DNA of 64,000 nucleotides from an uncultured Luminiphilus sp. (GTDB lineage: Bacteria; Pseudomonadota; Gammaproteobacteria; Pseudomonadales; Halieaceae): the NCBI GenBank assembly GCA_943787485.1, contig CALSMP010000013.1, forward strand, positions 1-64,000, in the 5' to 3' direction. A model generated the notes under the pieces. That model ran no database searches and had not been told where the DNA came from. It saw nothing but the letters and a program-made list of their open reading frames with translations. The stretch's first letter is position 1. Every line of letters starts with the position of its first letter. The position numbers and the translations under genes are program-made. This document shows positions 15,583-34,856 of the stretch, one piece after another.

Positions 15583-16759
15583 ATGACATCTTCTACCCCC
15601 GCAATGCCTCTGGATACGGCGACGGAGTCTCCGGTGCATTGGCGTAATCCGCTCACTGGCAATTTGTTTTGGCCGCTGCAGGTGATGGGTTGGTTGGGTC
15701 TCTCGATCATTACTTATTTGAGTCTCAGCTTGCCTTACAATCAGTTCGAGCTGTCGTACCTTGCGCATAACGCTACCCAGTCCCTACTCGGCATTGTGCT
15801 CACCTTACCCCTTCGATATTGCTACCAGCGTATTTGGCATTGGCCGGTGTGGCGGCGGGTGGTGGTAGCGGTCGCTGCCGCCCTGCTTTTGTCGGCGCTT
15901 TGGGCGGTCATGCGGCTCGTTATCTTCATGGCGTTGACCGGAGAGACTGGCCTGTGGCCGGATTTTGGGCGGCTGGCTGTTTCCCTCCATCTTCGTTTTT
16001 GTGACGTGGGCCGCGCTGTACCACGGTATCAAGTACTACCAGCTGCTTCAGCGGCAGCGGCAAACGTTACTCGAGTATGAGTTGCGGCAGCGGCGTGAGG
16101 CGATGGATATGATTATCGCCAAGTCCGAGACCCGGGATGCCCAGCTCAAGCTTCTTCGGTACCAGCTGAACCCGCACTTTCTATTTAATACCTTAAATTC
16201 CGTTACGGCCCTGATTGCAGCAGAGCGTCATGATGATGCTAAGAGTATGTTGGCCAAGCTCAGCGCTTTTCTCCGTTTTTCATTGGACAGCGATGGCAAG
16301 TACGTTGTCTCGCTCAACGAAGAGTGTGATGCTTTGGAGCTATACCTTGATATCGAGCGTGTGCGTTTCGCGGATCGGTTGGAGGTAGAATTTTCTATCG
16401 ATCCAGCGGTGAGCCATCTGGCGGTGCCGAGTTTCTTGCTTCAGCCCCTGGTAGAAAACTCGATAAAGCACGCTATTGGACGCAGCGAAGAGGGCGGCAA
16501 AATTCGCGTTAGCGCGCAGGCTATTGATCAAGGCATTCAAATTCGGGTCGAGGATACTGGGAACACAGAAGCCGCGAGCCGCGGTGACTCGGCTGTGCTC
16601 GAGAAGGTGGACGGGGCCGGGGTTGGCTTGCGAAACACCCGTGAACGGCTCAAAAATCTGTACGGCGACAGCGGCGATGTGAGCTCATCGCGTTCCGAGC
16701 TTGGCGGACTACAAATAAACATTACCATGCCCGCTGTGGAGGTGCTTCAGTATGGCTGA
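15583..16759 (+). pseudogene. LytS/YehU-family sensor histidine kinase with one frameshift
   Basis: Membrane sensor kinase. The first part (15583-about 15962) encodes about three membrane helices. The second part continues GGWLFPSIFVFVTWAALYHG and then the His_kinase core, with the phosphoacceptor motif RYQLNPHFLFNTLNSV, the N-box FLLQPLVENSIKHA and the G-box GAGVGLRNTRERL. The frames join at TTTTGGG (15963-15969): removing one base makes a single protein of about 392 aa. The partner regulator overlaps its stop codon and is intact, so the pair was functional recently or still is. A sequencing error is the simplest explanation; no known slippery signal is recognised. Confidence 0.85.
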
Positions 16760-17573: not shown

Positions 17574-17760
17574 TCTGGGTCATAAACTGAGGTTTAGGCT
17601 GCGCTGAAAGCCGCTTAAAACCAACGAAGAAAGGACGTGCGAGGCTTGTCCTGCTCATCCTACTGACAGTCCAGATTGTCGACTTTCAGTTAATCCAAGC
17701 TCTTGGGTATGGGTTAATTGCGTTATCACTCCCATTAATCTTAACGTGGCGGTTTTCCTC

Positions 17761-20700
17761 ATGTCTTTAGCCATCGCGCGTGTGCGCCTTTTGTTCGTGT
17801 CCACAGTGTCGGCGGCGCTCATCGCCTGCGGCGGCGGCGGTGCCGAATCCCCAGTGGTGGATCCCTTCTACCCGGAGGCTAGCGCTGAGTGGACGCTGAT
17901 TTGGAGTGATGAATTCGATGGCGATGCGCTAGACACGGGTAACTGGGATATCCAGACGGGAGATGGCAGTGAGTACGGCCTTGCCCGCTGGGGTAATGAT
18001 GAGCTGCAGTGGTACACCGAAGATAACCTTGTTGTAGGCGACGGCATATTGAGAGTGGAGGCTCGCGCTGAACAAGTTGTCGCTGGTTTTCCGTACACCT
18101 CTGGTCGAATTCGAACCCTCGGTAAGCTCGATTTCCAATACGGTCGGGTCGAGGCCCGTATCAAGTCAGCCACGGGTAAGGGCTTGTGGTCGGCCTTCTG
18201 GATGCTGCCCAGCGATGATCGCTTTGGCGGGTGGGCATCCGGCGGCGAGATCGACATTATGGAGGTGGTGAACGCGGGCACCACGGAGGAGAACTACTAC
18301 GCATCCCTGCATCATGGTTTCGCGTGGCCCCTTAACCAGACCACCACCGAAAGCATCGGCGTTGATAACCCCGGCGAAGATTTCCACATCTACGCTATCG
18401 AATGGACTGAAGATTACGTCCGCTGGTTTGTCGATGATCGGAACTTTATGACGGTGGATGCCGAGCACTGGTACTCCTATTACTACGGTGGTACCAACGT
18501 CGGCTATGAGCGCGGCGCCGGTGCAGCCCCGTTCAATCGAGATTTTCATTTGTTACTTAACCTGGCGGTAGGTGGCAACTTGCCGGGGTAACGTCGGCCC
18601 CGGCGCTATCCCCTCGGCGATGGAGGTGGACTACATTCGCGTCTACGAGTGTGCCTATAACGAGGCCAGCGGTTCTGGCTGTAATAGCGAGGCAGACCGC
18701 ACGGTAGAGTCGCCCGGCGCACAAGCGCCCTACGAAATCGCCTTCCCGCTCTACACCAACGGCGCCGATGCTCTGTCCTGGGTGGTCGGTGCCGATACGA
18801 TCACCCGCGAGCTCGTAGTCTCTTCGCCTTGGGACAACGACGGATCGCTGACCTTTGCCGAAATAGAAACCGAAACGGATCGAGGCGCCGTGATTGAGGT
18901 AGTCACCTCCAATGCTGGCAATATCGCTATTTCGGCGGTGGATGAGGAGCCGACAGCGCTATTTGGTTTTGGCAATAACCCGTTGTATTACCAAATTCAT
19001 GCCGGTGAACTGAAGTTTGATATGTACATCGATTCGGCGGGCACCGACCTCGACAGCACTATCCAGGTGAAGATGGATAGCGGGTATCCGGCCCTTGGTT
19101 TTAAGGAGCTTCAGGTGAGTGATATGCCGCTGGATCAGTGGTTCACCATGAGCGTGCAGGTAAACGACCTGCTCGCGAATTCGGGACAACGTCGCCTCGA
19201 CACCAGCCGCGTTATGAATTTGTTTGTTTTAGAGCCCAGCTCAAGCGCCCACGTCATGATCGACAATGTGGAGCTGGCTTGCGGCCACCCCAGCCGCCGA
19301 GGCTGTGGCATTCGTCCACCCGGCGGATCCGTGGACGGCTCGTTGGTGCCTGTTTTCACCACCGACGGTAACGTCGGCCCACTTTGGGATCGCGGCATTT
19401 GCGGCTATGACACGCTGGTCAACGGTGATTACTGCGGCGACGGTAATACGACTAACCTGATTACATGGACGGTGACCGATTCGGGAAATCCCGAAATTGG
19501 CGCCGCACTCAACGTCAATTTTGCCAACAGCGGCGCTGACGGCGTGCTCTTCATCGGGTCTGCGGGCGGGGTCGACCTCAGCGATTTTGTCCGAGGTGGC
19601 AAGCTTCTGTTCGACATGCGGTTACCAGAATCCACCGTCGCATCAGGGATGGTCTACAAGGTCGATTGCTTTTATCCCTGCGGCACCGGCGATCAGCAGA
19701 TTGATCTGTCCGACTACGAGGCCAACACCTGGCAGACCTTTGAGGTGCCCGTAGCCCAGTTAGTGGGCTCGGGACTCGACGTCACGTCGGTTAATGCCGG
19801 CATCGTCCTGTTTCCCACTTGGGGCAATCAACAGGGGCTGTCCTTTGAGGTTGCCAATGTGCGCTACGAAGGCGAGGGCGAGGGCGAGCCCGAGGTGCCC
19901 GCCGCGGCAGTATTCACTGACGGTGTTGTGGGCGAACGATGGGAGGCCGGCATCGGCGCCTTTGATGAGGCCTTGGAATACGGTGAGTGTCTCGATGACG
20001 GCGGTGCTGGCTGCCCAAGCATTGATTGGGAAATTGTGGAAGACGATGACCGCGGTCCGGTGCTAGAAGTGAGTCATGGAGCCCAATTTGCCGGCCTGTT
20101 TTTTAAGACTGAGTTTGGTGCTGACATGAGCGAATACGCTGAGGGCGCGGTGCGGTTTGATATTCGCGTGCTTTCCGAGGGCGTTAACACCAGCGGGTTT
20201 GTCATGAAGGTAGATTGCTTCTATCCCTGCAGTTCAGGGGATCAGGCCATCGGTAATGTCGGCCTCGAGGGCTGGCAGACAGTGCAGGTGCCGGTAAGTC
20301 AGCTGGTAGACGGGGGGCTGGATGTCACTCTCGCCAATACGGGTCTTGTTCTGTTTCCCGCCTTCGGCGAAACCGACGGGGTGGTTTATCAGCTCGATAA
20401 TGTGGAGTGGGTGGCCGATGACACGCCGCCGATTCAGGCGCAGGTGCAGCTGGTGTTTGAGGACGGCGTTGTCGATCCTATGTGGGACATCGGGCTCGCC
20501 GGCTTTGATGAGGCGATCAACTACAACAGCTGTGTCGGTGCCGGCGGTGCGGGTTGTCCTAACCTGGGTTGGGAAATCGTCGGTGACGCAGAACGTGGCG
20601 ATGTGCTGGAGATCACGCACGGTGCGCAATTTGCGGGCTTGTTCTTCGAGTCCTCTCAGGGGCGCGACTTGACCAGCTACGCCGCCGGCTATGTCAGTTT

Positions 20701-20965
20701 CGACATCAAGGTGATGGAGGAGGGTGTCAACTACGGTGGCTTTGTGATGAAGGCCGACTGTTTCTACCCCTGTTCATCGGGTGATCAATCGATCGGCAAC
20801 GTCGGCCTTGATGGTTGGGAGACCGTGACAGTGCCGGTGACTCAGCTCGCAGCCGGTGGTCTCAACCTGACCAAGGTGAATACCGGCTTGACTATTTTCC
20901 CTGTATTTGGGGAGACCGATGGCGTGGTTTACCGGCTGGGCAATGTGAAATGGGTTGTCGAGTAG
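17761..20965 (+). pseudogene. GH16 beta-glucanase (laminarinase-like) lipoprotein with multi-module tail, one frameshift
   Basis: Endo-acting glycosidase, probably on beta-1,3-glucan, and outer-membrane anchored. The signal peptide ends in a lipobox (ALIAC) followed by a glycine run. The GH16 domain spans roughly residues 40-290, with the catalytic signature E163-I-D165-I-M-E168 in GGEIDIMEVV. The frame breaks at GGGG (18585-18588): dropping one G joins GGNLPG to NVGPGAIPSAMEVDYIRVYE, exactly the usual end of a GH16 domain. The remaining 750 residues hold one divergent module (about 18690-19290) and three tandem related modules. Such modules are expected to bind glucan (inference). An alternative GTG start lies at 17746. 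With the shift repaired the protein has about 1068 residues. Confidence 0.88.
19346..20962 (+). repeat. Three tandem protein modules in the GH16 tail
   Basis: Three copies of a module of about 165-180 aa begin near 19346, 19905 and 20450. Each opens with a phrase like FTDGVVGERWEAGIGAFDEA, contains a cysteine pair in KVDCFYPC or KADCFYPC, and ends with VYQLDNVEWV or similar. Copies two and three are the closest to each other (GAQFAGLFF, SSGDQ-IGNVGL, FGETDGVVY shared). Copies one and two are joined by a short acidic EGEGEGEPE linker. The GH3 enzyme at 30.7 kb carries a related domain at its C-terminus. Confidence 0.85.
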
Positions 20966-21147
20966 AGGCGGAGTAGGCTTGCCGCGCCATTTAGTCCTAA
21001 GTTCGGTCCGCTTGGTCCTATTGGGGCGGTTGCAGTCCTGATGTTATCAATATACTCACGGCGTATTAGGCTATGCAATGTAACCCGTTGGGATTAGTTG
21101 TATTCCATATGATAAAATCCGCTAGCAGGCGAAATGAGGAACTAAAG

Positions 21148-22152
21148 ATGAACGTCACTCGAACCTTACCACTTGCAACCCTCTTGGGTGCAATCAGCGT
21201 CCAAGCGCTTGCGGCAGAGAGCATGGTTACGCTGAATGCCGCCTTTAACAACGTCTTCAACTTAAACGGAGATGGTACGGCGGGAGACTACATTTACGGC
21301 GAGGAATACACCGACCTTTCAAGAGCTCAGGTTATTGACATTGAGGCAGGGTCGGCAAGGATGGGTCCGAATACGGGATATTATCAGGACGTTTGTGTCA
21401 ATGGAGACCAAGCCTCATTCTGGTGTGGCAATAATGGTACTACCCCTAACAAGTTTGTAGGGCTAGTTGCGCAAGGCCCGGTTCCCGGTCAGCCACAGTT
21501 CACTGTTACTGCTGACGTCAGCGGAATTCCCGCTGGCTATACGGCTCAACTATCGGCTATTGGTTTTACGGCGGACTTCCAAGGTAACTATCCGTTTCCG
21601 GTCGAACAAACATTGACCGAAGACGGCACGCTCTCTGCGACAATAGATTTTACCGGTGGAACTCTGGTGAATTATTTCGCTCAGATAATTCTTAATGGCC
21701 CCATTATCGATCCGGCGGATGCGGCTAGTGTCGGGTATATGAGTGTTACCAATCTGAAGGCAACATACGATGCCCCCTCGGTGCCTTCTGGGTTGCGAGC
21801 AATACCAGCGTCTAATGGAGATGTCACGGTCGTTTGGACAGCAGGGGACGTAAAGCCCGAGTCCTACGCAATTCAGCGAGACTTGCGACAGGGTGCAGGC
21901 TGGCAGGAAATCGACTCAACTTCTTGGACCGAGGGCAGTTACGACGATGCTACAGGATTGCCCCCAGGGTCGAGGATTGGATACCGAGTTGTTGCCAGGG
22001 GCGCCGGCCAAGCTGAGGCAACAAGTGAGGAAGTTGTTACCGAAATCCCAATAGCGGTTGAGGCTGCTCCCGTACCTACGATGCCAATTTGGGCACTTGC
22101 CCTTTTGGGAGGGTTACTTGGTCTGTTCGGGTATCGCCGAGTCGCCAAATAA
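21148..22152 (+). CDS. Secreted protein with fibronectin-III domain and C-terminal sorting-type tail
   Basis: Not recognised as an enzyme. ATG 21148 follows GAGGA at 21136-21140 and gives a signal peptide (LPLATLLGAISVQALA). Residues about 20-205 form a beta-rich domain with two Cys (DVCVNG, FWCGNN) and YMSVTNLKATYD. A fibronectin type III domain follows (SVPSGLRAIPASNGDVTVVW to YRVVARG). The end, VPTMPIWALALLGG plus a hydrophobic stretch and YRRVAK, is a tripartite sorting signal of the exosortase/IPTL kind. It lies inside the glucan locus, so it may be a surface glycan-binding protein (inference). A weak promoter (TTGCAG, short 15 bp spacer, TATACT at 21051) is possible. No sortase-type partner is in the window. 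Confidence 0.7.
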   Translation: MNVTRTLPLATLLGAISVQALAAESMVTLNAAFNNVFNLNGDGTAGDYIYGEEYTDLSRAQVIDIEAGSARMGPNTGYYQDVCVNGDQASFWCGNNGTTPNKFVGLVAQGPVPGQPQFTVTADVSGIPAGYTAQLSAIGFTADFQGNYPFPVEQTLTEDGTLSATIDFTGGTLVNYFAQIILNGPIIDPADAASVGYMSVTNLKATYDAPSVPSGLRAIPASNGDVTVVWTAGDVKPESYAIQRDLRQGAGWQEIDSTSWTEGSYDDATGLPPGSRIGYRVVARGAGQAEATSEEVVTEIPIAVEAAPVPTMPIWALALLGGLLGLFGYRRVAK

Positions 22153-22293: not shown

Positions 22294-23778
22294 TCAGCGA
22301 GTCTCAGAAAGATGATTTAGGAACCCTTGGTGGTCGGGCAGGCGCCCTAGTGACTGGTCGATACCGACGCGAATATTGGTGAGAAAAGTGTCGAGCTGGG
22401 TGTCCGCCATCGCGTCCGCGATATTGTGGTACCCCTGCGGCATGAGCCCCTGCCCCATCATCACCTGCACCCAGGAGTTTTCAGAAAACACGTCTTCCTG
22501 GGGCTTGAACACTCGCCCTGTGCGTTTGAATAGGGCCATCCGCTGTGCCAGCGAGTCAGGAATAGGCATGTCACGCACATAGTCCCAGAAGGGCTCTGCC
22601 GTGCGCTCGTTGAGTCGGTAATGCAGGACAATAAAATCCCTGATGTGTTCGGCCTCGGTTCGCAGCTTGGTGTTGTACTCGCGCACGGTCGCGTCATCGA
22701 TGCCCATCTCGGGGAACATCAGTAGCAGCCACATGATGCCATTTTGAATGAAGTGAATGCTGGTGCTCTCCAGCGGCTCAATAAAGCCGCTGGCCAATCC
22801 AATCGCTACGCAGTTTTTATGCCAGTAGGCTTTACGTTGGCCGGTGGTGAAACGAATCGGCCGTGGATCGGCTAATGGCTTCTCGGGGATGTTATTCAGC
22901 AGTAGTTGGCTGGCTTCATCCTCTGAGTACGCATCACTGTTGTACACCAGCCCATTGCCCGCGCGATGTTGCAGGGGAATGCGCCACTGCCAACCACCCT
23001 TGTGGGCAATGGCCTTGGTGTAGGGTGGCGGCGGGCCGTCGAGCTCGCTTTGAATCGCCACCGCGCGATTACAGGGCAGCCAGTGGGACCAATCCTCGAA
23101 GCCGGTTTCTAAACTGCCCTCCGAGAGCAGGGCCTTGAAGCCAGTGCAGTCAATAAACAGATCGCCTTCGATGATGTCGTCGGAATCCAGATGCAGCTGC
23201 TTGATATAGCCGCTGTCGCTGTGGCGGCTGACCGCCTTGATCATTCCCTCAAGGCGCTTGACGCCGGCAGACTCGGCGCGCTTGCGCAGGTACTGGCCAT
23301 AACGCGTTGCATCGAGGTGGTAGGCGTAATTAATGGGCGTGTCTGAGAGCAAGCCAAATTTGCCCGCCTGGGCGGCCTTTAACTCGAGACAGTAGTCGCC
23401 GTACTCGCCGCCAAATCCCAACTGCCGAGCGCGCAGCCAAAAATGATGGAAGCCGCCTGCCCAGCACCCTTTACCGGTGTCGCCAAAGGAGTGAAAGTAT
23501 CGATCCCCCGGCCGCGTCCAGTTTTCGAATTGAATGCCTAGTTTAAAGGTGGCAGAGGTCTCTCGAATAAACTCGGGCTCGGGTATTTTGAGCAGTCGAT
23601 TGATCGTGAGAATGGTTGGGATAGTGGCTTCACCCACCCCGACGGTACCAATAGCATCGGACTCGATCAGGGTGATATCCAGTTTGCGCGCGACCAGATG
23701 CGAGAGCGCCGCCGCCGTCATCCAGCCCGCAGTGCCACCACCGGCGATAACAATTTTTTGAATGGTTTGATCGGTCAT
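22294..23778 (-). CDS. Flavin-dependent tryptophan halogenase family protein (first copy)
   Basis: FADH2-dependent halogenase-fold enzyme, 494 aa, intact. The FAD motif GGGTAGW is at residues 13-19. Lys79 in ATFKLGIQF matches the catalytic Lys79 of PrnA in both context and number. The WxWxIP signature is present as GWQWRIP, and the active-site Glu region is FIEPLEST. These residues support real halogenase or related flavin chemistry, but the substrate is unknown and probably not free tryptophan, given the setting. It is the last gene of a run halogenase2-SapC-cupin-halogenase1, 15 bp after the cupin gene. Such halogenase/SapC/cupin sets are known beside TonB receptors and glycoside hydrolases in other Proteobacteria. 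Confidence 0.88.
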   Translation of the reverse strand: MTDQTIQKIVIAGGGTAGWMTAAALSHLVARKLDITLIESDAIGTVGVGEATIPTILTINRLLKIPEPEFIRETSATFKLGIQFENWTRPGDRYFHSFGDTGKGCWAGGFHHFWLRARQLGFGGEYGDYCLELKAAQAGKFGLLSDTPINYAYHLDATRYGQYLRKRAESAGVKRLEGMIKAVSRHSDSGYIKQLHLDSDDIIEGDLFIDCTGFKALLSEGSLETGFEDWSHWLPCNRAVAIQSELDGPPPPYTKAIAHKGGWQWRIPLQHRAGNGLVYNSDAYSEDEASQLLLNNIPEKPLADPRPIRFTTGQRKAYWHKNCVAIGLASGFIEPLESTSIHFIQNGIMWLLLMFPEMGIDDATVREYNTKLRTEAEHIRDFIVLHYRLNERTAEPFWDYVRDMPIPDSLAQRMALFKRTGRVFKPQEDVFSENSWVQVMMGQGLMPQGYHNIADAMADTQLDTFLTNIRVGIDQSLGRLPDHQGFLNHLSETR

Positions 23779-23793
23779 AGGCCCATGTTGTTC

Positions 23794-24817
23794 CTAGCGC
23801 TTAAGCCGGTTGATTAATTCGGCCCGCAACTGTCTTGCAGCGGGTTCATCAATGGCATCCAGCGTGCCGCGCCGCGAGCGGCGGTATATGCTGCAAGTGC
23901 TCGTCGTCCTCGGCAAAGAGATACTGGTCGAACAAAGCCTGCCAGGCGCGCTTCTGCGCCGCCGGCAGCTGCTTAATGCTGAGTAGGCCGTGCTGAAAAA
24001 CATCGGCGGGGCTTCCGTACACTGGCGGGGTCTCGCTCCACCAGTAATTGATCAGGCCATTCATGCTTTCGGTACCCTCGACGTGGTGCCACCACATACC
24101 AGGCAGGTAGATCGCGTCGCCGGGCTCGAGCTCGGTCATGGTGGCGGCCTGCCAAGCCTCGGGAAAACGCGGGAAGCGGTCTATATCGGGGTCGTGAAAA
24201 TCGACCAAGCTAATAGGCTGTCCAGCTGGGGTCAGATCCCAAGGGCCGATGTATAAATTGCCCACTTGCTCGGGGGGGAACACCGTAAATTTTCGTCGAC
24301 CCATGACGCAGCAGGCTAAATTGCGAGGGTAGTCAAAGTGGGCCGCGATACGACTGGCATTGCCCAGCCACAGGCTCACAAGTGGGTTGTTGAGTTCGAA
24401 TGGGAGCGAGAGACTCTCACCCAAGCCGGGCAACCAACCAGTGAGTGGCGTTGAACCGACGTAAAGCCCAGCCGGATCTGGGGTATCGACAAGCGCAATG
24501 AGCTTGTCGACGACTTGGGACAGTCGTGTCTTAACTTGCACAAAGTTGAAGCCATCGAGCGCCTCGTTATAAAAGAAGCGCCCCCGATACTCGGCTTCGC
24601 ATAGAAAAGCCGTAATATCGTGGCCGCTGTCGTGATCTTTTAGGAGCGCGGCCGCCTCAGCGTTACTTTTCTGCGCCGCCTTGACCAGTGGCCAGCTTGC
24701 GCCCAGGCCGCGCACGACCCAAGGCGCATCCGCCAGCAGCCAGTGGTTGGGGTTTGCTGCAAGCTCGGTAAGGCTGACTTCCCGAATGGCGGTGGGGGTG
24801 GGCAGGGGACTGGGCAC
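23794..24817 (-). CDS. JmjC/cupin-like domain protein (Pass1-related), probable terminal frameshift
   Basis: Cupin-fold protein of the JmjC-like type, cytoplasmic, about 340 aa once corrected. The iron-binding pattern is suggested by AAHFDYPRNLACCVMGRRKFTVFPPEQ and the later GDAIYLPGMWWHHVE. The family includes hydroxylases and proteins of unknown role. As written the frame stops at 23849 with a garbled end (LAARHAGCH). Dropping one G near 23870-23876 gives LARGTLDAIDEPAARQ and a stop at 23794, which leaves the usual short gap to the next gene. Its start lies 3 bp after the SapC stop, so translation is probably coupled. Confidence 0.75.
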
Positions 24818-24820
24818 TAC

Positions 24821-25537
24821 TCACTCCAACGTTGCGTTCTTGCGGGCGATCAGGTGTGCGAGCTGGGACAAGGAGGCGAGCATCATATAGGCCGGTGTTA
24901 GAAAACCGTGCTTCTGAAGATCTGCCAAACCCTCTGCCGGTAGCGTTTGAAGCTGCTCATCATCAATCATGTAGTACCCCGAGAGCTTGTGCTGTTGCTG
25001 GTTGCGAAGGGTAACGGCAAGTTCGCAGGGGGTGATAAGGGCGTATTTTTCCAAAGCGTCGATAAACCCAGGCGTCGCTTGGTGACCCGCCTGAATAGTC
25101 TCTAGCAGCTGGGCCATGTGATCCATATGGTCTGACTGGCCCCCTTGGTCGAGAAACAACCGCTCTCCTTCGCTGATGGAGACTTTTGGGTGGGCCATGT
25201 CAATCGCCGCGACGGGCTGTCTGCCTCGGTCCCGAGTTTCTTCAAAGCCGATCATCAGCGGCCCGCGCTGGCTCATGAGGGGAATGTGGGCAGCATCCCA
25301 TGTCCCCGCTGACAGGAACAGATTTTCTGAAGGCTCAAAGCCGAGCAGTGCAATCGGATGGAGTGAGCCCTCGGTGGGATCCTTGTAAAAGAGCAGGGGA
25401 TAGGTAGCTTGCAATCGTCGCATCTCGGCGGGATACACGGGCACAAACATAACATTATCGCCGAGATCCGGGCTAAATCGCGTGATGACTCGGACCTGCG
25501 CGTGATCGATGTTATTGAGCTTCTCAATCTGACTCAT
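24821..25537 (-). CDS. SapC family protein
   Basis: Protein of 238 aa matching the SapC family, named after a Campylobacter S-layer-associated protein; biochemical role unknown. It begins at ATG 25537 (MSQIEKLNN). The open frame continues upstream to 25891, but that part is an out-of-frame shadow of the halogenase 3' end. Typical features are FVPVYPAEMRRL, LFYKDP and HPIALLGF early on, and YYMIDDEQLQTL with a helical end. No signal peptide or membrane helix is seen. It lies between halogenase 2 and the cupin gene in one transcription unit. Confidence 0.85.
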   Translation of the reverse strand: MSQIEKLNNIDHAQVRVITRFSPDLGDNVMFVPVYPAEMRRLQATYPLLFYKDPTEGSLHPIALLGFEPSENLFLSAGTWDAAHIPLMSQRGPLMIGFEETRDRGRQPVAAIDMAHPKVSISEGERLFLDQGGQSDHMDHMAQLLETIQAGHQATPGFIDALEKYALITPCELAVTLRNQQQHKLSGYYMIDDEQLQTLPAEGLADLQKHGFLTPAYMMLASLSQLAHLIARKNATLE

Positions 25538-25550
25538 GGTTGCACCGCTA

Positions 25551-27129
25551 CTAGCCTTGAGCGCCGGGGAAGGATCGCTCGTGAACCTGTTGCAGTAGAT
25601 CACGATTGCTGGGCAAATGGGCGGAAAACTTGGCCACCTGCTGGTCGACTTCCTGCATGAATTGCTGCGCGCGCTGCTGCGCCTGCGAGAAACCCCGTCG
25701 GGCCTGATTGACCCGTGTTTGAAAGCCCATTCCATAAAGCACATATTGATAGCTTGCCGAAGGGAACAGCTCGTCCGAGCGACGCTCGTCCTGATGCCAG
25801 GGCGTGCGCGACTGCCACAAGCGAAGCTTCTCCTTGAGCGATTCGGGTATGGATGACTCGTGTCGGTTATCACGCCAATAGGGGCTGTCATCCCGGGCCG
25901 ACAGGACGTAGTGCAGTTTTAAAAAATCGATAATTTGCTCCCAACGCCCGGTAAACTCCTCGTTGAAGTTCTTTGCGGTTAGGTCCATGAGCGAGCGGTC
26001 TGTGGGCAGATTATCGGCCAAGCGCGCGGGCGCTCAGTTCGATTAACACCAGCGCCGACGCCTCGAGGGGCTCAACGAAGCCCCCCGATAAGCCAATCGC
26101 AACACAGTTCCTGTGCCAGAGTTGTTGTCGATAGCCGGATTGAAAATTAATCATTCGAGGGGCGAGGGCATCGAGACCTTTGGTAACACCCGTTTCTTTG
26201 AGGTAGCGGTCCAATGCGTCGTGGGCTTGGGCGTCACTGCAGTAATCGGCGGCATGAACATAACCCACGCCGCGGCGGTCTCGAAGACCGATGTCCCAAA
26301 TCCAACCGCTGTCCTGGGCTGTAGACCAGGTCGTTGATCGAATGGCCTCGGCCGTGGCTTCGTAGGGCACCTGTACCGCGAGTGCGCGGTTGTTAAAGAG
26401 ATAGCGGTCTACGGGGACTAACGGTACTTGGTAGTGGCCGCTCAGTAGCAGGCTCTCAAAGCCGCTACAGTCAACAAAAAGATCGCCGGCGATGCGCTTT
26501 CCGGTTCGTGTCACAAGAGCATCGATGTCCCCGCTTGATCGGATCTCCACCTGCTCAACATGCTCTTGCAGGTGGGTGACCTCAAACTGCTGGGTGGCTG
26601 TTTGTTGTAGCAAGTCGGCGAAGCGCCCGGCATCCAGATGATAGCCATAATTGAGCACATAGCCGTATTCGGGAATGCCGATCTGTTTTGGCGCCGCGGC
26701 CCTGTCGCAGAGTGCACCCTGCGGTGTGACGGCCTGGGCAAAGGGTTTGTCGCGGCAAAGCCCTGCAAGCCAGTGCTCGGCAAGGTTGGTTTCTGCGTAA
26801 CCTAGCGGTGGCGTGAAAGGGTGGTAGTAGCTGTCGCCTGCAGCATCCTCGCGCCATTGTCGAAAGTAGGTGCCCTGTTTCAGCGAGGCGCCACAGTGCC
26901 GCATAAAAGTGGTTTCTGAAATCCCTATCTTTTTAAGGGTCGAACGCATTGAGGGCCAGGTTCCCTCGCCCACACCGATGGTGGGGGTATCCGGAGATTC
27001 GACTAGCGTTATGGCGAGACCCTGCTCGCCGGATTCGAATTCCGCGCCAAGAATACAGGCGGTTAGCCACCCCGCGGTGCCGCCACCGACAATCACAACT
27101 TGCTGAATGGGCCGATTTGACTCGTCCAT
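25551..27129 (-). pseudogene. Tryptophan halogenase family protein (second copy), one frameshift
   Basis: Second flavin-dependent halogenase-fold protein, about 525 aa when repaired. FAD motif GGGTAGW at residues 15-21; the putative catalytic Lys84 lies in ASLKQGTYF. The tryptophan signature is altered (GWIWDIG rather than WxWxIP), hinting at different chemistry from copy one. The frame breaks near 26021-26032 in an alternating GC stretch: LIELSAR ends prematurely, while the continuation ADNLPTDRSLMDLTAKNFNEEF is in the next frame. Dropping one base joins them. This is the first gene of the operon, about 100 bp downstream of the receptor gene and separated from it by a terminator. Confidence 0.85.
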
Positions 27130-27185: not shown

Positions 27186-27209
27186 AAAAAACCGCCACGA
27201 AGGCGGTTT
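27186..27209 (-). terminator. Rho-independent terminator after the TonB receptor gene
   Basis: On the minus strand: AAACCGCC, loop TTCGT, GGCGGTTT, continuing to six T. It lies 25 bp past the receptor stop and upstream of the halogenase operon. It would cap receptor transcripts or, if leaky, set a lower level of the downstream genes. Confidence 0.88.
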
Positions 27210-30227: not shown

Positions 30228-30659
30228 ACTTTGCAATTTTCGCCCGCCTAACGAGCGCTTGGAATCCCCTTGAGATGAGGGGGTCTGGCGTTGCGTTAAG
30301 CGGGATGTCCAGTACCGGGCCTCTTCCAGCCCGCCGCGCGTGTAACCCCCGTCACCGCGTTTGCCCCAGTGCTATGGCTGACGGCAGTGGCGCTGGAGCG
30401 ATACCATGGCCCGGGTAGCGCACTGACGGCAGCCCTGCGCCTTTGTCGTCACGTGCTGCTGCCAGTGGAGCCTGTTCCAGCGGAGCCTGCTTAGGTAACA
30501 GGCGACGCAAAGGCAACCGAAGTAAGAGCAGGGAACTAACTAAGCAAAAAAGAACACGGAACCATGGACGGTGCGGAAGGATTGCCAGAGAGTTTTTGCA
30601 AGTGCTCTGCGGCCTGTTGGTACCTTGAAATGAGAATGACACACAGAAGAGTTGTTGCA
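30228..30659. other. Divergent intergenic region of the glucan locus
   Basis: About 430 bp separating the receptor and GH3 genes; it should hold the promoters and control sites of both. Visible structure: the 10-mer CTGACGGCAG occurs twice about 45 bp apart (near 30378 and 30422), and GGAGCCTG occurs twice within 25 bp (near 30467 and 30482). No complete gene, LacI-type operator or small RNA could be recognised. Confidence 0.4.
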
Positions 30660-33197
30660 ATGCCTCCACGTAATCAAGCAGGAATATTAGTCTCCACGGC
30701 ATGCTGGAAGTCGGTCAGGCGGTCTATTGCGTTGGCCTTTGCCGCAGGCATTCTGTGGGGGTGCGGAGATACGTCGTCCACCAAGACCGAGACGGATGCG
30801 GGCCTCAGTGTTCGCACCACTCTTGCGATGGAGGCCGAGGTCGAGGCGATCCTGGAGTCGTTGTCCCTAGAGCAAAAGGTCTCGCAAATGATTCAGGGGG
30901 AAATTGCCCATGTCACGCCCGAGGACGTCCGTCAGTACGGGCTAGGCAGCGTGCTCAATGGCGGCGGTTCCTTCCCCCAGAGTAATAAACACGCCAGCGT
31001 GAGCGACTGGTTAAACCTCGCAGATGCCTACTGGGAGGCTTCTCTTGATCAATCCGGCGGAGGTGCTGGGATACCGATTATTTGGGGAACCGATGCGGTA
31101 CATGGCCACAACAATGTGCTTGGCGCGACGCTGTTTCCACATAACATCGGATTAGGCGCTGCGGCCGACCCCAATTTGGTGAGCGATATTGCTGCGGCCA
31201 CAGCGAAGGAAGTGCGTGCGACCGGGATAGATTGGATTTTCAGCCCAACCATCGCAGTGGCCATGGACTATCGCTGGGGACGTACCTACGAATCTTTCAG
31301 TAGTGATCCCGAACTGGTCAGGGACTACTCCGCCCCCTTTGTTGAAGCGATGCAGGCCGTGGGTGTGGCGGCAACTGCAAAACATTTTATCGGGGATGGC
31401 GGCACCTTTCGGGGGGATGATCAGGGCGATACGCGCCTCACGTTGGAAAAGCTAATGGAAGGGCATGGAGCGGGTTATATAGAGGCCATTAATGCGGGTG
31501 CTCTGACGGTGATGGCGTCATTTAACAGCTGGAATGGTGAGAAAATTCACGGCAATCGTGAGCTACTGACTGAGTTGCTGAAAGAGGATCTCGGTTTTGA
31601 CGGCTTTGTGGTCAGCGACTGGAACGGGGTAGGCCAGGTGCAAAATTGCCGACCGGATAATTGCGCCCGGGCCATCAACGCAGGGGTCGACATGGTCATG
31701 GTGCCCAAGCACTGGAAGGCGATGCGACAGAATATGATCGATCAGGTGAAGGCCGGCGTTATTAGCGAGGCACGCGTGGATGACGCGGTACGGCGAATAC
31801 TACGAGTCAAGGCCAAGCTAGGTCTTTTCGGCCGCGAAAAACCGTCGGTCGTTGCCGCAGACTTTGCACAGACCGTCGGCAGTGATCCACATCGAGCACT
31901 GGCGCGAGATGCCGTCCGACGCTCGCTGGTGATGCTGAAAAACGATAATCAACTTGTCCCCCTTAATCCCAAGGGCACTTATCTCATCACCGGTAGCGCA
32001 GCTGATGTGATCACGCAGCAATCGGGCGGTTGGACCCTTACCTGGCAGGGAACCGACAACACCAATGGTGACTTCCCGGGAGCAACCTCTATACACGCCG
32101 GGTTTGCAGCGCAAATTGAACAAGCGGGTGGGCGTCTTTATACCGACGCCACCTTGCCGGCGGGCCAAGCGCTTGATGGTGTCATAGCGGTTTATGGAGA
32201 AACCCCCTACGCCGAAGGGGTGGGTGATGTCGATGCGTTGTATTGGCGCTTTGGCAACAAGAACGAACTGGCAACACTCCAAAAATGGCGAGAGGCGGGC
32301 ATCCCAGTGGTGTCGGTATTCATTACCGGCCGCCCTCTGTGGGTCAACGCTGAGATCAATGCCTCGGATGCCTTCGTGGTCGCCTGGCTTCCCGGGAGTG
32401 AGGGGGGTGGTGTGGCAGACGTCGTGTTGAGAGCAGCCGATGGACAGGTCCAGTACGAGTTTGTCGGGCGCTTACCCATGGGGTGGCCGGCGTCGGATGT
32501 AAATGCAGTCGACGATAATCTTGCAGTCGCCGATTTTGCCTTTGAGCGCGGCTACGGATTAAGCGTCGATAGCAACGTACAAACAATTGCCCTGTCCGAG
32601 GAGGCCCTGTGGGAGCCCTTCGATCAGGCCATGCCTATTTTCTCGTTGAGCTTGCAGGACCCGTGGGAAAATTTTGCTGGGGATACGATGGAGTGGAACA
32701 CCCCATTGGGTGCCCGGGGAGGCCAGTCCAAAACCGGGGCATTGACGGTATCGGTAACGGATCATCGCGTTCAGGAGGATGCCAGACAGTTGGTCTGGTC
32801 GGGGTCATCCGATGAGATTGTGCAATTCTTCTATCAAGCCGCAGAGGCTGTGAACATGGCCAAGCTTGAAAAAGGTCACGGCGCACTTGTTTTTGATGTG
32901 CGGGTTGTCGAGCCCCCTACCGGGGAAGTGGCGCTCCGAATGGATTGCGGGTGGCCTTGCAGTGGGTCCCTCGAGGTGAGTGGCCTGTTGGATAGCTTGG
33001 CTCTCGAAGAATGGTTGCGCGTGGCGGTGCCCTTGAGCTGTTTTAAGGTGGCGGGCGCGGATATGCGAACCATCGATACGCCCTTCCTGCTGGCGACAAA
33101 AGACGCCATGGTTGTCGAGGTGGGAGAGGTTATCTTGACGGCGGACACCGCGGGCACGGTATGGTGGGCCTGTGACGACGCGGGTGGCAATGCTTGA
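30660..33197 (+). CDS. GH3 exo-beta-glucosidase lipoprotein with ExoP-type C-terminal domain
   Basis: Removes glucose from the non-reducing end of beta-glucan oligosaccharides, probably in the periplasm or at the outer membrane. ATG 30660 follows AAGAG and gives a signal peptide with lipobox Cys35 (ILWGC). The GH3 catalytic domain spans about residues 70-420: GTDAVHGHNNV, WGRTYESFSSDP, AATAKHFIGDGG, and the nucleophile D320 in FVVSDWNGV. The second alpha/beta domain follows, then about 200 residues of the ExoP C-terminal type with MDCGWPCSG. Longer upstream frames to 30564 lack a ribosome site. The closest known relatives are 1,4-beta-glucan glucohydrolases/ExoP; linkage preference here is inferred from the GH16 partner. 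Confidence 0.92.
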   Translation: MPPRNQAGILVSTACWKSVRRSIALAFAAGILWGCGDTSSTKTETDAGLSVRTTLAMEAEVEAILESLSLEQKVSQMIQGEIAHVTPEDVRQYGLGSVLNGGGSFPQSNKHASVSDWLNLADAYWEASLDQSGGGAGIPIIWGTDAVHGHNNVLGATLFPHNIGLGAAADPNLVSDIAAATAKEVRATGIDWIFSPTIAVAMDYRWGRTYESFSSDPELVRDYSAPFVEAMQAVGVAATAKHFIGDGGTFRGDDQGDTRLTLEKLMEGHGAGYIEAINAGALTVMASFNSWNGEKIHGNRELLTELLKEDLGFDGFVVSDWNGVGQVQNCRPDNCARAINAGVDMVMVPKHWKAMRQNMIDQVKAGVISEARVDDAVRRILRVKAKLGLFGREKPSVVAADFAQTVGSDPHRALARDAVRRSLVMLKNDNQLVPLNPKGTYLITGSAADVITQQSGGWTLTWQGTDNTNGDFPGATSIHAGFAAQIEQAGGRLYTDATLPAGQALDGVIAVYGETPYAEGVGDVDALYWRFGNKNELATLQKWREAGIPVVSVFITGRPLWVNAEINASDAFVVAWLPGSEGGGVADVVLRAADGQVQYEFVGRLPMGWPASDVNAVDDNLAVADFAFERGYGLSVDSNVQTIALSEEALWEPFDQAMPIFSLSLQDPWENFAGDTMEWNTPLGARGGQSKTGALTVSVTDHRVQEDARQLVWSGSSDEIVQFFYQAAEAVNMAKLEKGHGALVFDVRVVEPPTGEVALRMDCGWPCSGSLEVSGLLDSLALEEWLRVAVPLSCFKVAGADMRTIDTPFLLATKDAMVVEVGEVILTADTAGTVWWACDDAGGNA

Positions 33198-33293: not shown

Positions 33294-34856
33294 ATGGCCC
33301 TGGCCAATATTGATCTTACGATTGTTGCGATTTACGCCATTGCTCTGTTCGCGATCGCGCAATGGGTATCCCGGGAGCAGGCTGGCCATGAGAAGGACGC
33401 CGCCGACTATTTTCTCGCCGGACGCGGCTTGCCGTGGTGGGCGATCGGCACGTCATTAATCGCAGCCAATATCTCCGCGGAACAAATTATTGGGATGTCT
33501 GGTTCGGGCTACGCCATCGGCCTGGCGATAGCCTCCTACGAATGGATGGCGGCCATCACCTTGATTTTAGTTGGAAAGTTTCTCTTGCCGGTGTTTCTCA
33601 AGACTGGCATCTACACCATGCCCCAATTCTTAGAGCAGCGCTACGATGGCCGCGTCAGGACCGTTATGGCGGTGTTCTGGCTTGGGGTTTATGTTCTCGT
33701 GAACCTCACGTCGATTTTATGGTTGGGTGCTCTCGCGATGAACACCGTCGCGGGGGTGCCACTGACCTATGGCTTGGTGCTCCTCGGCGTATTCGCCGTC
33801 GCCTATTCGCTCTACGGCGGGCTCAAGGCCGTCGCCCTCACCGATATCATCCAAGTGGTGTTGCTGGTTCTGGGTGGGCTGCTGATTGCTTATACCCTGT
33901 TGAACTTGGTTTCTGACGGGGCGGGGGTCGTGGTCGGTTTTCAGCTGCTAATGGAACAGGCGCCCGACAAGTTCGACATGATTTTTGAAGAGGGCCATCC
34001 CCACTATGCCGACCTACCGGGCTTGTCGGTGCTGCTCGGTGGCATGTGGATTATGAATATCTCCTACTGGGGCTTTAATCAATACATTATCCAGCGTGCG
34101 CTTGCGGCCAAAAGTGTCAACGAGGCGCAAAAAGGCATCGTTTTTGCCGCCTTCCTTAAGCTGCTGATGCCGGTCATTGTGGTATTACCCGGTATCGCCA
34201 TGTTTGTGCTCAATACGGACTTAGCCTCCCCGGATCAAGCCTACCCCTCGGCAATGACCTTGTTGCCAGTGGGCATAAAAGGGCTTGTCTTTGCGGCCTT
34301 GCTCGCGGCGATAGTCTCCTCGCTGGCTTCTATGTGTAACAGCATTTCCACGATCTTTACCCTCGATATCGCGCCCACCATGATGGCCAGCGCCTCACTT
34401 GAGGGCCGACGCGTGGTTATTGGTCGAACGGTCTCGGTGACGGCAATGGCCATCGCGATGATGGCGGCAAAGCCGCTGTTGGGTGATTTCGATCAGGCCT
34501 TCCAGTACATTCAGGAATTCACCGGTTTTTTCACCCCGGGCATCGTGGTCATTTTTTTGCTGGGTATGTTCTGGCGCGGGACCACGGCGTCTGCCGCTTT
34601 ATTAGCGGCTATCGGGTCGGCGGTATTGTCGGTCGCCTTCAAACTCTGGATGCCGGAGTTGCCGTTCATTGATCGCGTGGGCGTGGTCTTTTTGCTTTGC
34701 GCTGGTATCGCGATAGCGTGGTCGCTTGCCCGTCCCAAAGCGCAACCTGGTTTTGTCGAGCCTTCGGGTGTTGAGTTTGGTACCTCAACGGCATTCAACC
34801 TCAGCACCTTGGCTGTGACACTTATTCTGGTGTTCTTCTACACCGTATGGTGGTAG
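33294..34856 (+). CDS. Sodium/sugar symporter, SSS (SGLT) family
   Basis: Inner-membrane Na+-coupled transporter, 520 aa with about 14 helices. Features of the vSGLT type: DYFLAGRGLPWWAIGTSLIAANISAEQIIGMSGSGYAIG, then the family signature around GGLKAVALTDIIQVVLLVLGG, and FNQYIIQRALAAKS. A strong AAGGAGG lies only 4 bp before ATG 33294. It is 96 bp downstream of the GH3 gene on the same strand, so it most likely imports the glucose that GH3 releases. Confidence 0.9.
   Translation: MALANIDLTIVAIYAIALFAIAQWVSREQAGHEKDAADYFLAGRGLPWWAIGTSLIAANISAEQIIGMSGSGYAIGLAIASYEWMAAITLILVGKFLLPVFLKTGIYTMPQFLEQRYDGRVRTVMAVFWLGVYVLVNLTSILWLGALAMNTVAGVPLTYGLVLLGVFAVAYSLYGGLKAVALTDIIQVVLLVLGGLLIAYTLLNLVSDGAGVVVGFQLLMEQAPDKFDMIFEEGHPHYADLPGLSVLLGGMWIMNISYWGFNQYIIQRALAAKSVNEAQKGIVFAAFLKLLMPVIVVLPGIAMFVLNTDLASPDQAYPSAMTLLPVGIKGLVFAALLAAIVSSLASMCNSISTIFTLDIAPTMMASASLEGRRVVIGRTVSVTAMAIAMMAAKPLLGDFDQAFQYIQEFTGFFTPGIVVIFLLGMFWRGTTASAALLAAIGSAVLSVAFKLWMPELPFIDRVGVVFLLCAGIAIAWSLARPKAQPGFVEPSGVEFGTSTAFNLSTLAVTLILVFFYTVWW

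Follow-up and report, generated by a model that had tools for sequence, protein, structure and literature searches.

The closest crystallised relatives of halogenase 1, one of the enzymes considered here, are Xcc4156 and BrvH. According to the respective papers both show no activity on free tryptophan, halogenate indole and have a native substrate that is called unknown. Their sites are described there as open, and peptides were proposed as substrates. With indole BrvH moreover reacts slowly, and its natural role as substrate is doubted by the BrvH authors. A further precedent is QhpG, which dihydroxylates Trp of a protein substrate encoded in the same operon. Here we analyse a locus with two such flavoproteins in a 64,000 nt stretch of DNA from an uncultured Luminiphilus sp. 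(Halieaceae; GenBank assembly GCA_943787485.1, contig CALSMP010000013.1, positions 1 to 64,000), referred to as the window in the following. Genes for two halogenase-fold proteins (halogenase 1 and 2), a SapC family protein and a JmjC-like cupin follow one another head to tail on the minus strand (22294-27129), right behind the gene of a TonB-dependent receptor of the TIGR01782 subfamily. All four genes are genuine and make up a single conserved cassette together with the receptor.

Halogenase 1 finds its best PDB chains in Xcc4156 (6y1w), 9luq and BrvH (6frl). Xcc4156 and BrvH align over nearly the whole length (579.9 and 443.1 bits, respectively) and share the conserved Lys and the WxWxIP motif with it. 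Similar to the halogenase 1 gene, brvH is adjoined by a second halogenase gene. What sets the present locus apart is its context of receptor, SapC and cupin; the main texts of the Xcc4156 and BrvH papers do not contain the term TonB. The closest solved relatives of halogenase 2 are 2pyx, 9lu2 and 9ltb, PDB entries named tryptophan halogenase, of which 2pyx is described as unpublished structural-genomics work. QhpG, LodB and GoxB, which act on protein partners in tryptophylquinone maturation, give weak and partial matches to the window flavoenzymes. The best scores stay far below the equivalog cut-offs for peptidyl-Trp maturases (QhpG 34.2/240, LodB 26.4/400, GoxB 19.5/400 bits), and in contrast to those systems no dehydrogenase or radical-SAM partner is present among the cassette genes. 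The closest solved relatives of the cupin are the protein hydroxylases FIH and JMJD5, whose HxD...H pattern is kept in the bacterial protein of the window.

All four families were confirmed by profile searches, as the initial annotation had proposed from the letters alone. It had also supposed that such genes recur beside TonB receptors, and this was evaluated by counting. In a sample of 145 genomes from the host's order, with E ≤ 1e-80 for PF04820 and E ≤ 1e-95 for TIGR01782 as thresholds for strong matches, PF04820 is present in 20 genomes and TIGR01782 in 49, with both in 19 (Fisher p 1e-9). SapC is found in 41 genomes, 18 of which also have a halogenase (p 6e-10). Distances were determined in 11 genomes chosen for carrying SapC, whereby gene counts per genome represent the matches listed and some genes may be missing. 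Within this set 46 of 52 halogenase genes are located ≤ 10 kb from a TIGR01782 receptor gene, while 3.5 would be expected by random placement. Hence the association of the cassette families with TonB receptors beyond chance held, both by genomes (19/20) and by genes (46/52). It extends to only part of the subfamily to which the window receptor belongs, as 30 of 93 TIGR01782 receptors have a halogenase within 10 kb. In the genome of the window itself the window receptor alone exceeds the TIGR01782 cut-off, and the only strong PF04820 matches are the two cassette genes. Three relatives that were checked (G506, G467 and G012) resemble it in this, each with just two strong PF04820 matches, both at the corresponding locus. 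Elsewhere the family is expanded, with 20 matches in G566 and 22 in G531.

A similarity search with halogenase 1 yielded at least 590 loci. Among the best 80 of them, a receptor is present at 68, SapC at 52, a cupin at 53 and all three at 47 in the stretch of DNA retrieved for each. The exact order receptor, WxWDIG enzyme, SapC, cupin, WxWxIP enzyme was found in 32 of 106 receptor entries, and 17 of the 106 have no cassette gene downstream. Since this sample is biased by its query, we reversed the search and used the receptor alone. In 390 genomes of the order (E ≤ 1e-110, with no more than two candidates scored in each genome) 55 places in 41 genomes were obtained, two of which are cut by contig ends (L261, L292). 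Among the 53 assessable places, which include the window's own and G144:2981415, a cassette gene follows directly downstream at 48. Two other orders (109 and 397 genomes, E ≤ 1e-130) gave 81 listed places, of which 41 were examined (11 of 12 in one order and, in the other, the 30 with the highest scores out of 69). A cassette gene is located directly downstream at all 41, namely the WxWDIG enzyme at 19, SapC at 17, the cupin at 4 and a halogenase of unclear type at 1. Taken together, the cassette unit recurs in Gamma-, Beta- and Alphaproteobacteria.

A phylogenetic tree of 143 receptors was built using FastTree with Shimodaira-Hasegawa-like support. It contains a branch of 68 members (support 99) in which every receptor is followed by cassette genes according to a scripted rule, whereas the 44 unlinked receptors all lie elsewhere in the tree. 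SapC is combined with the WxWDIG enzyme in 38 members and with another halogenase in 22. Five have the WxWDIG enzyme with no SapC called, two the WxWxIP enzyme only and one SapC only, the latter with cupin and halogenase upstream. The form with SapC and cupin is found mostly, but not only, in one receptor clade; a few SapC-linked receptors are located outside the 68-member branch, and other TIGR01782 branches carry a WxWxIP halogenase alone. By tree path the nearest relative of the window receptor is one from a Halieaceae metagenome-assembled genome (73% identity), pointing to a host that is probably a marine gammaproteobacterium of similar kind. As separate observations, receptors of a different TIGR01782 branch at six loci (L131, L136, L137, L140, L149, L151) are followed by a WxWxIP halogenase, SapC and cupin being absent from the sequence available. 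At another locus (L058, 12160-18039) two tandem receptors precede a WxWDIG enzyme and SapC, and WxWxIP enzyme and cupin are absent from the sequence available; the position of Trp650 (see below) is F or Y in these receptors.

It is highly improbable, given these counts, that the flavoproteins are free-tryptophan halogenases of a natural-product pathway which adjoin the receptor by accident. Apart from the family name nothing points to such a role. We rejected it in view of the linkage, of the substrate tests on the nearest relatives, which refuse free tryptophan, and of the lack of any further strong halogenase gene in the window's genome and in G506, G467 and G012, which argues against a separate pathway. 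The suggestion of the initial annotation that the substrate is something other than tryptophan therefore agrees with the literature on Xcc4156 and BrvH.

Table 1. Cassette genes and neighbouring features of the window (positions within the 64,000 nt stretch).
Feature	Coordinates	Strand	Basis and remarks
TonB-dependent receptor, TIGR01782	27234..30236	-	607 bits vs cut-off 310; likely start is ATG 30170
Terminator-like hairpin with T run, between receptor and halogenase 2	27190..27208	-	read in the sequence and by script
Halogenase 2 (WxWDIG type), first part; K84	26011..27129	-	PF04820 positions 1-350, 316.8 bits
Halogenase 2, last part, other frame	25551..26021	-	PF04820 positions 356-448, 77.2 bits
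SapC family protein	24821..25537	-	PF07277, 212 bits vs cut-off 28.9; alignments; AlphaFold2 model
Cupin_8, FIH/JMJD5-like Fe(II)/2-oxoglutarate oxygenase type, HxD...H	23849..24817	-	PF13621, 208 bits
Halogenase 1 (WxWxIP type); K79	22294..23778	-	PF04820, 610 bits
GH16 (laminarinase-type), carbohydrate-binding-like tail, apparently split	17746..20965	+	PF00722, 77.4 bits; Exop_C stretches in the second open reading frame
GH3, beta-glucosidase type	30564..33197	+	PF00933, 270.7 bits; PF01915; Exop_C
Sodium:solute symporter	33294..34856	+	PF00474, 199 bits

The tight coupling of cupin and SapC to the halogenases, as claimed initially, holds among the enzyme genes. Across the loci compared the median gaps are 3 bases between SapC and cupin and 17 bases between cupin and halogenase. 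The receptor gene is separated from the enzyme genes of the window by 104 bases which contain the terminator-like hairpin. Translation of SapC probably begins with the ATG at 25537, and the longer open reading frame is a mechanical call.

Halogenase 1 shows all features of a flavin-dependent halogenase. In addition to the PF04820 profile match, K79 and W263-x-W265-x-I267-P268 are invariant in 12 aligned sequences, as are G13-G15 and G18, the glycines binding flavin adenine dinucleotide (FAD). The initial annotation was thus right about Lys79 and WxWxIP. It was equally right in reading K84 and a WIWDIG motif in halogenase 2, in which K84, W276-x-W278-D279-I280 and the FAD-binding glycines are invariant in 11 aligned sequences. 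WIWDI is also common to halogenase 2 and the PDB entries 2pyx and 9lu2 by alignment. Hence, judged by these alignments, WIWDIG is a trait of the subfamily and not special to the window's genome. Some variation appears in a wider set, where E replaces D (WIWEIG) or A replaces G (WIWDIA) in a few members. Halogenase 2 matches the PF04820 profile and has the catalytic Lys but not WxWxIP (WIWDIG in the window, W-x-W-D-I in 11/11 aligned). It is therefore filed as a halogenase-fold flavoprotein and not as a canonical halogenase. The WxWxIP motif has been suggested to keep such enzymes from monooxygenase activity. With its changed motif, halogenase 2 might conceivably hydroxylate.

One or both flavoproteins might have ceased to halogenate and have a redox, regulatory or chaperone role in receptor production. 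For halogenase 2 this would be in line with the missing WxWxIP and with EPLEA(S/T), where halogenase 1 reads EPLES(T). The invariant K84 and FAD-binding glycines in all 11 sequences, however, make it likely that some oxygen chemistry is kept in this enzyme. We thus consider a non-halogenating role unlikely.

SapC and receptor pass the cut-offs of their respective profiles. The AlphaFold2 model of SapC has a predicted local distance difference test (pLDDT) of 97, and no match to it was found in the PDB. In the cupin H160-x-D162 and H244, the HxD...H iron triad, are invariant in 17 aligned sequences. A further protein, DUF6445, is encoded in 21 of the 87 distinct cassette loci, where its gene frequently comes right after that of halogenase 1 (e.g. 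L038, 6234-6941). Its residues H115-x-D117, H207 and R225 are kept in 13 aligned members, a pattern (HxD...H...R) which we take to be that of 2-oxoglutarate oxygenases. DUF6445 is possibly a further oxygenase of the cassette. In the genome of the window a search gave no match to it, but the controls of that search stayed negative too. As to SapC genes found without the other cassette genes, those at L049, L052 and L055 have flanking open reading frames of matching lengths in three genomes. Over the whole flank set the families of polynucleotide phosphorylase and of the type VI secretion protein VasJ have 3 matching members each.

As the best explanation we propose, tentatively and at somewhat short of an even chance, that the genes form an oxidative tailoring cassette dedicated to the receptor, with the receptor itself or a peptide partner as target. 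The enzymes show no signal sequence at their starts when inspected by eye, and would hence act in the cytosol. Halogenase 1 would halogenate, and halogenase 2 halogenate or hydroxylate, an indole or phenol side chain, while the cupin would hydroxylate another side chain and SapC would hold or present the substrate. The latter would most likely be the unfolded receptor precursor, or a peptide working only with the receptor, prior to export. We assume such a substrate because of the open sites and the peptides proposed for Xcc4156 and BrvH, the precedent of QhpG and the weak matches to QhpG, LodB and GoxB, the FIH-like cupin and the constancy of the receptor. As a guess, the modification could serve to tune the receptor's stability or its ligand-binding face. 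A bolder version appears doubtful to us, namely that a whole clade of TonB-dependent receptors is halogenated and hydroxylated on side chains by the cassette before export, with SapC as escort and sometimes DUF6445.

Several observations weigh against a tailoring of the receptor. In the 11 genomes 63 of 93 TIGR01782 receptors have no halogenase within 10 kb, and receptors of this subfamily in general therefore do not need one. Five places from the receptor-only search (L293, L294, L306, L308, L309) show no cassette gene in the 6-7 kb downstream. All five genomes carry PF04820 elsewhere. These five receptors, found later and outside the 143-receptor tree, align with the clade and share its signature residues, so that the clade is not wholly free of unlinked members. 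SapC stands without the other cassette genes in 22 of 40 SapC regions compared, out of 55 detected. Moreover no modified receptor residue is known, the conserved residues of the clade may simply bind glucan, and cytosolic enzymes would have to reach the receptor precursor before export.

A candidate target residue likewise did not withstand replication. We scanned 618 receptor columns for changes along with gain or loss of an enzyme in tree-independent pairs. Position 651, next to Trp650, ranked first for halogenase 2 (9.4 of 15 pairs the same way, 0.5 the other) and was still first of 631 columns when only well-flanked loci were used (8.4 to 0.5 of 14). Trp650 itself occurs in 78 of the 82 receptors that have a WxWxIP enzyme nearby, in 0 of 4 with halogenase 2 only (few lineages) and in 6 of 6 with neither. 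Scans for halogenase 1, cupin and SapC revealed no receptor column standing out more than position 651. The prediction stated beforehand, that position 651 tracks halogenase 2, failed in the 41 receptors of the two other orders: V, I or L is found there in 2 of 19 with halogenase 2 next and in 12 of 17 with SapC next. Trp650 is not universal in those orders, with W in 11 of 19 with halogenase 2 next. The signal at position 651 was thus rejected as chance or a clade effect, and no target residue is claimed.

The locus had initially been placed in a polysaccharide context. With GH16, GH3 (GH, glycoside hydrolase) and the sodium:solute symporter around the cassette, laminarin-type is a fair description for the window. 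Across 87 distinct cassette loci GH16 or GH3 is present in 43 and neither in 44, in the sequence available. In the receptor-only regions (n=43) GH16 is found in 2 and GH3 in 2; these regions are shorter (~10 kb vs mostly 20 kb) and the contrast is therefore indicative only. The receptor is the constant partner of the cassette, and the glycan enzymes around it vary. In a survey of the flanks covering 95 of 154 listed proteins, 97 Pfam families were found and the 25 commonest inspected. They include GH3 (15 proteins), GH16 (12), LacI (9), SSF (4), MFS (2) and SBP (2). The hosts of cassette genes are in part marine and include isolates named after leaf and root. The GH16 gene of the window is adjoined by a gene (21073-22152) whose product carries an IPTL-CTERM sorting motif (PF18203).

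Such surroundings could suggest that flavoproteins and cupin modify imported beta-glucan or phenolics bound to it, with the 43 loci with GH16 or GH3 and the marine hosts pointing that way. We hold this for very unlikely. The receptor delivers to the periplasm, whereas the enzymes look cytosolic from their starts read by eye, 44 of 87 loci are without GH16 and GH3 in the available DNA, and cassette genes are also found in isolates whose names refer to leaf and root.

The same flanks bear on a stronger alternative. Most characterised halogenases with this fold have small aromatics as substrates. Accordingly, the enzymes could synthesise or alter a small molecule, aromatic or derived from a peptide, e.g. 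a signal, a siderophore-like carrier or an antifeedant, which is released or taken up through the receptor. The halogenation of indole by Xcc4156 and BrvH is compatible with this, and a receptor together with the biosynthesis genes of its own ligand would also give tight linkage. However, no acyl-carrier or peptide-synthetase family is among the 25 commonest flank families, which instead comprise GH3, GH16, LacI and sugar-type or general transporters, and the doubts of the BrvH authors about indole apply here too. On balance we regard a small-molecule product as rather unlikely, but as a serious contender.

The bolder version mentioned above, with the receptors of a whole clade modified, would amount to a post-translational tailoring system for outer-membrane transporters and could also alter how the receptor is recognised by outside agents. 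Should the receptor be the target, we know of no other outer-membrane protein maturation of this kind, here in bacteria equipped for glucan degradation. The subfamily has crystal structures and laboratory activities, yet its native substrate is called unknown in the papers; the position of these genes behind one receptor clade, with few exceptions, and the context of SapC and an FIH-like hydroxylase make this orphan-enzyme question specific and testable.

The initial annotation had called the system undescribed. In the open literature searched, judged by titles and the starts of abstracts, no description of the cassette is apparent. A comparative genomics study of peptide-modifying dioxygenases by Iyer et al. 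(2010, Nucleic Acids Research) reportedly may mention such neighbourhoods. Papers in which tryptophan halogenase and TonB-dependent receptor are both named deal with different subjects. One paper, about seawater exposed to oil, raises the speculation that virus-host receptor interactions might be modulated by an unknown halogenase of the family; it deals with other genes and provides no evidence for the cassette of the window. All families involved are known. New are the counted, order-spanning bond of a receptor clade with the enzyme set and the subfamily-wide WxWDI.

The hairpin behind the receptor gene was considered as an attenuator. Terminator-like hairpins are present in 71 of 86 receptor-to-halogenase gaps and in 28 of 42 receptor-to-SapC gaps (shuffled expectation 9.4 and 6.4, respectively), and in 0 of 79 and 0 of 72 gaps inside the enzyme operon. 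A second terminator scan (9 sites, 8.7 expected) did not list the hairpin of the window. A hairpin is found at a similar frequency when no cassette gene is next (42/67) as when one is (123/174). It is therefore ordinary for receptor genes, and an attenuator as a special device of the cassette was rejected.

Two gene calls of the initial annotation had to be corrected. Halogenase 2 is not a single open frame but runs through two (Table 1) without lost residues, while in the relatives compared it is one frame; proteins from two genomes of the same genus (G594, G577) and one of the same family (G467) match across both. The cupin frame stops at ...ARHAGCH*, and the family-like C-terminus apparently goes on in the next frame, which by eye reads as the family's C-terminal stretch to ~23794; matches of relatives stop at 23882, 23882 and 23858. 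The GH16 gene is apparently frameshifted near 18572-18591. These changes look like sequence errors and not decay, since several occur in a short stretch and four relatives (L285, L287, L288, L289) are intact. A sensor histidine kinase also seemingly lies in two overlapping frames (15583-16080 and 15965-16759) with Pfam matches in the second only, which together with halogenase 2, cupin and GH16 gives about 4 apparent frame changes within 12 kb.

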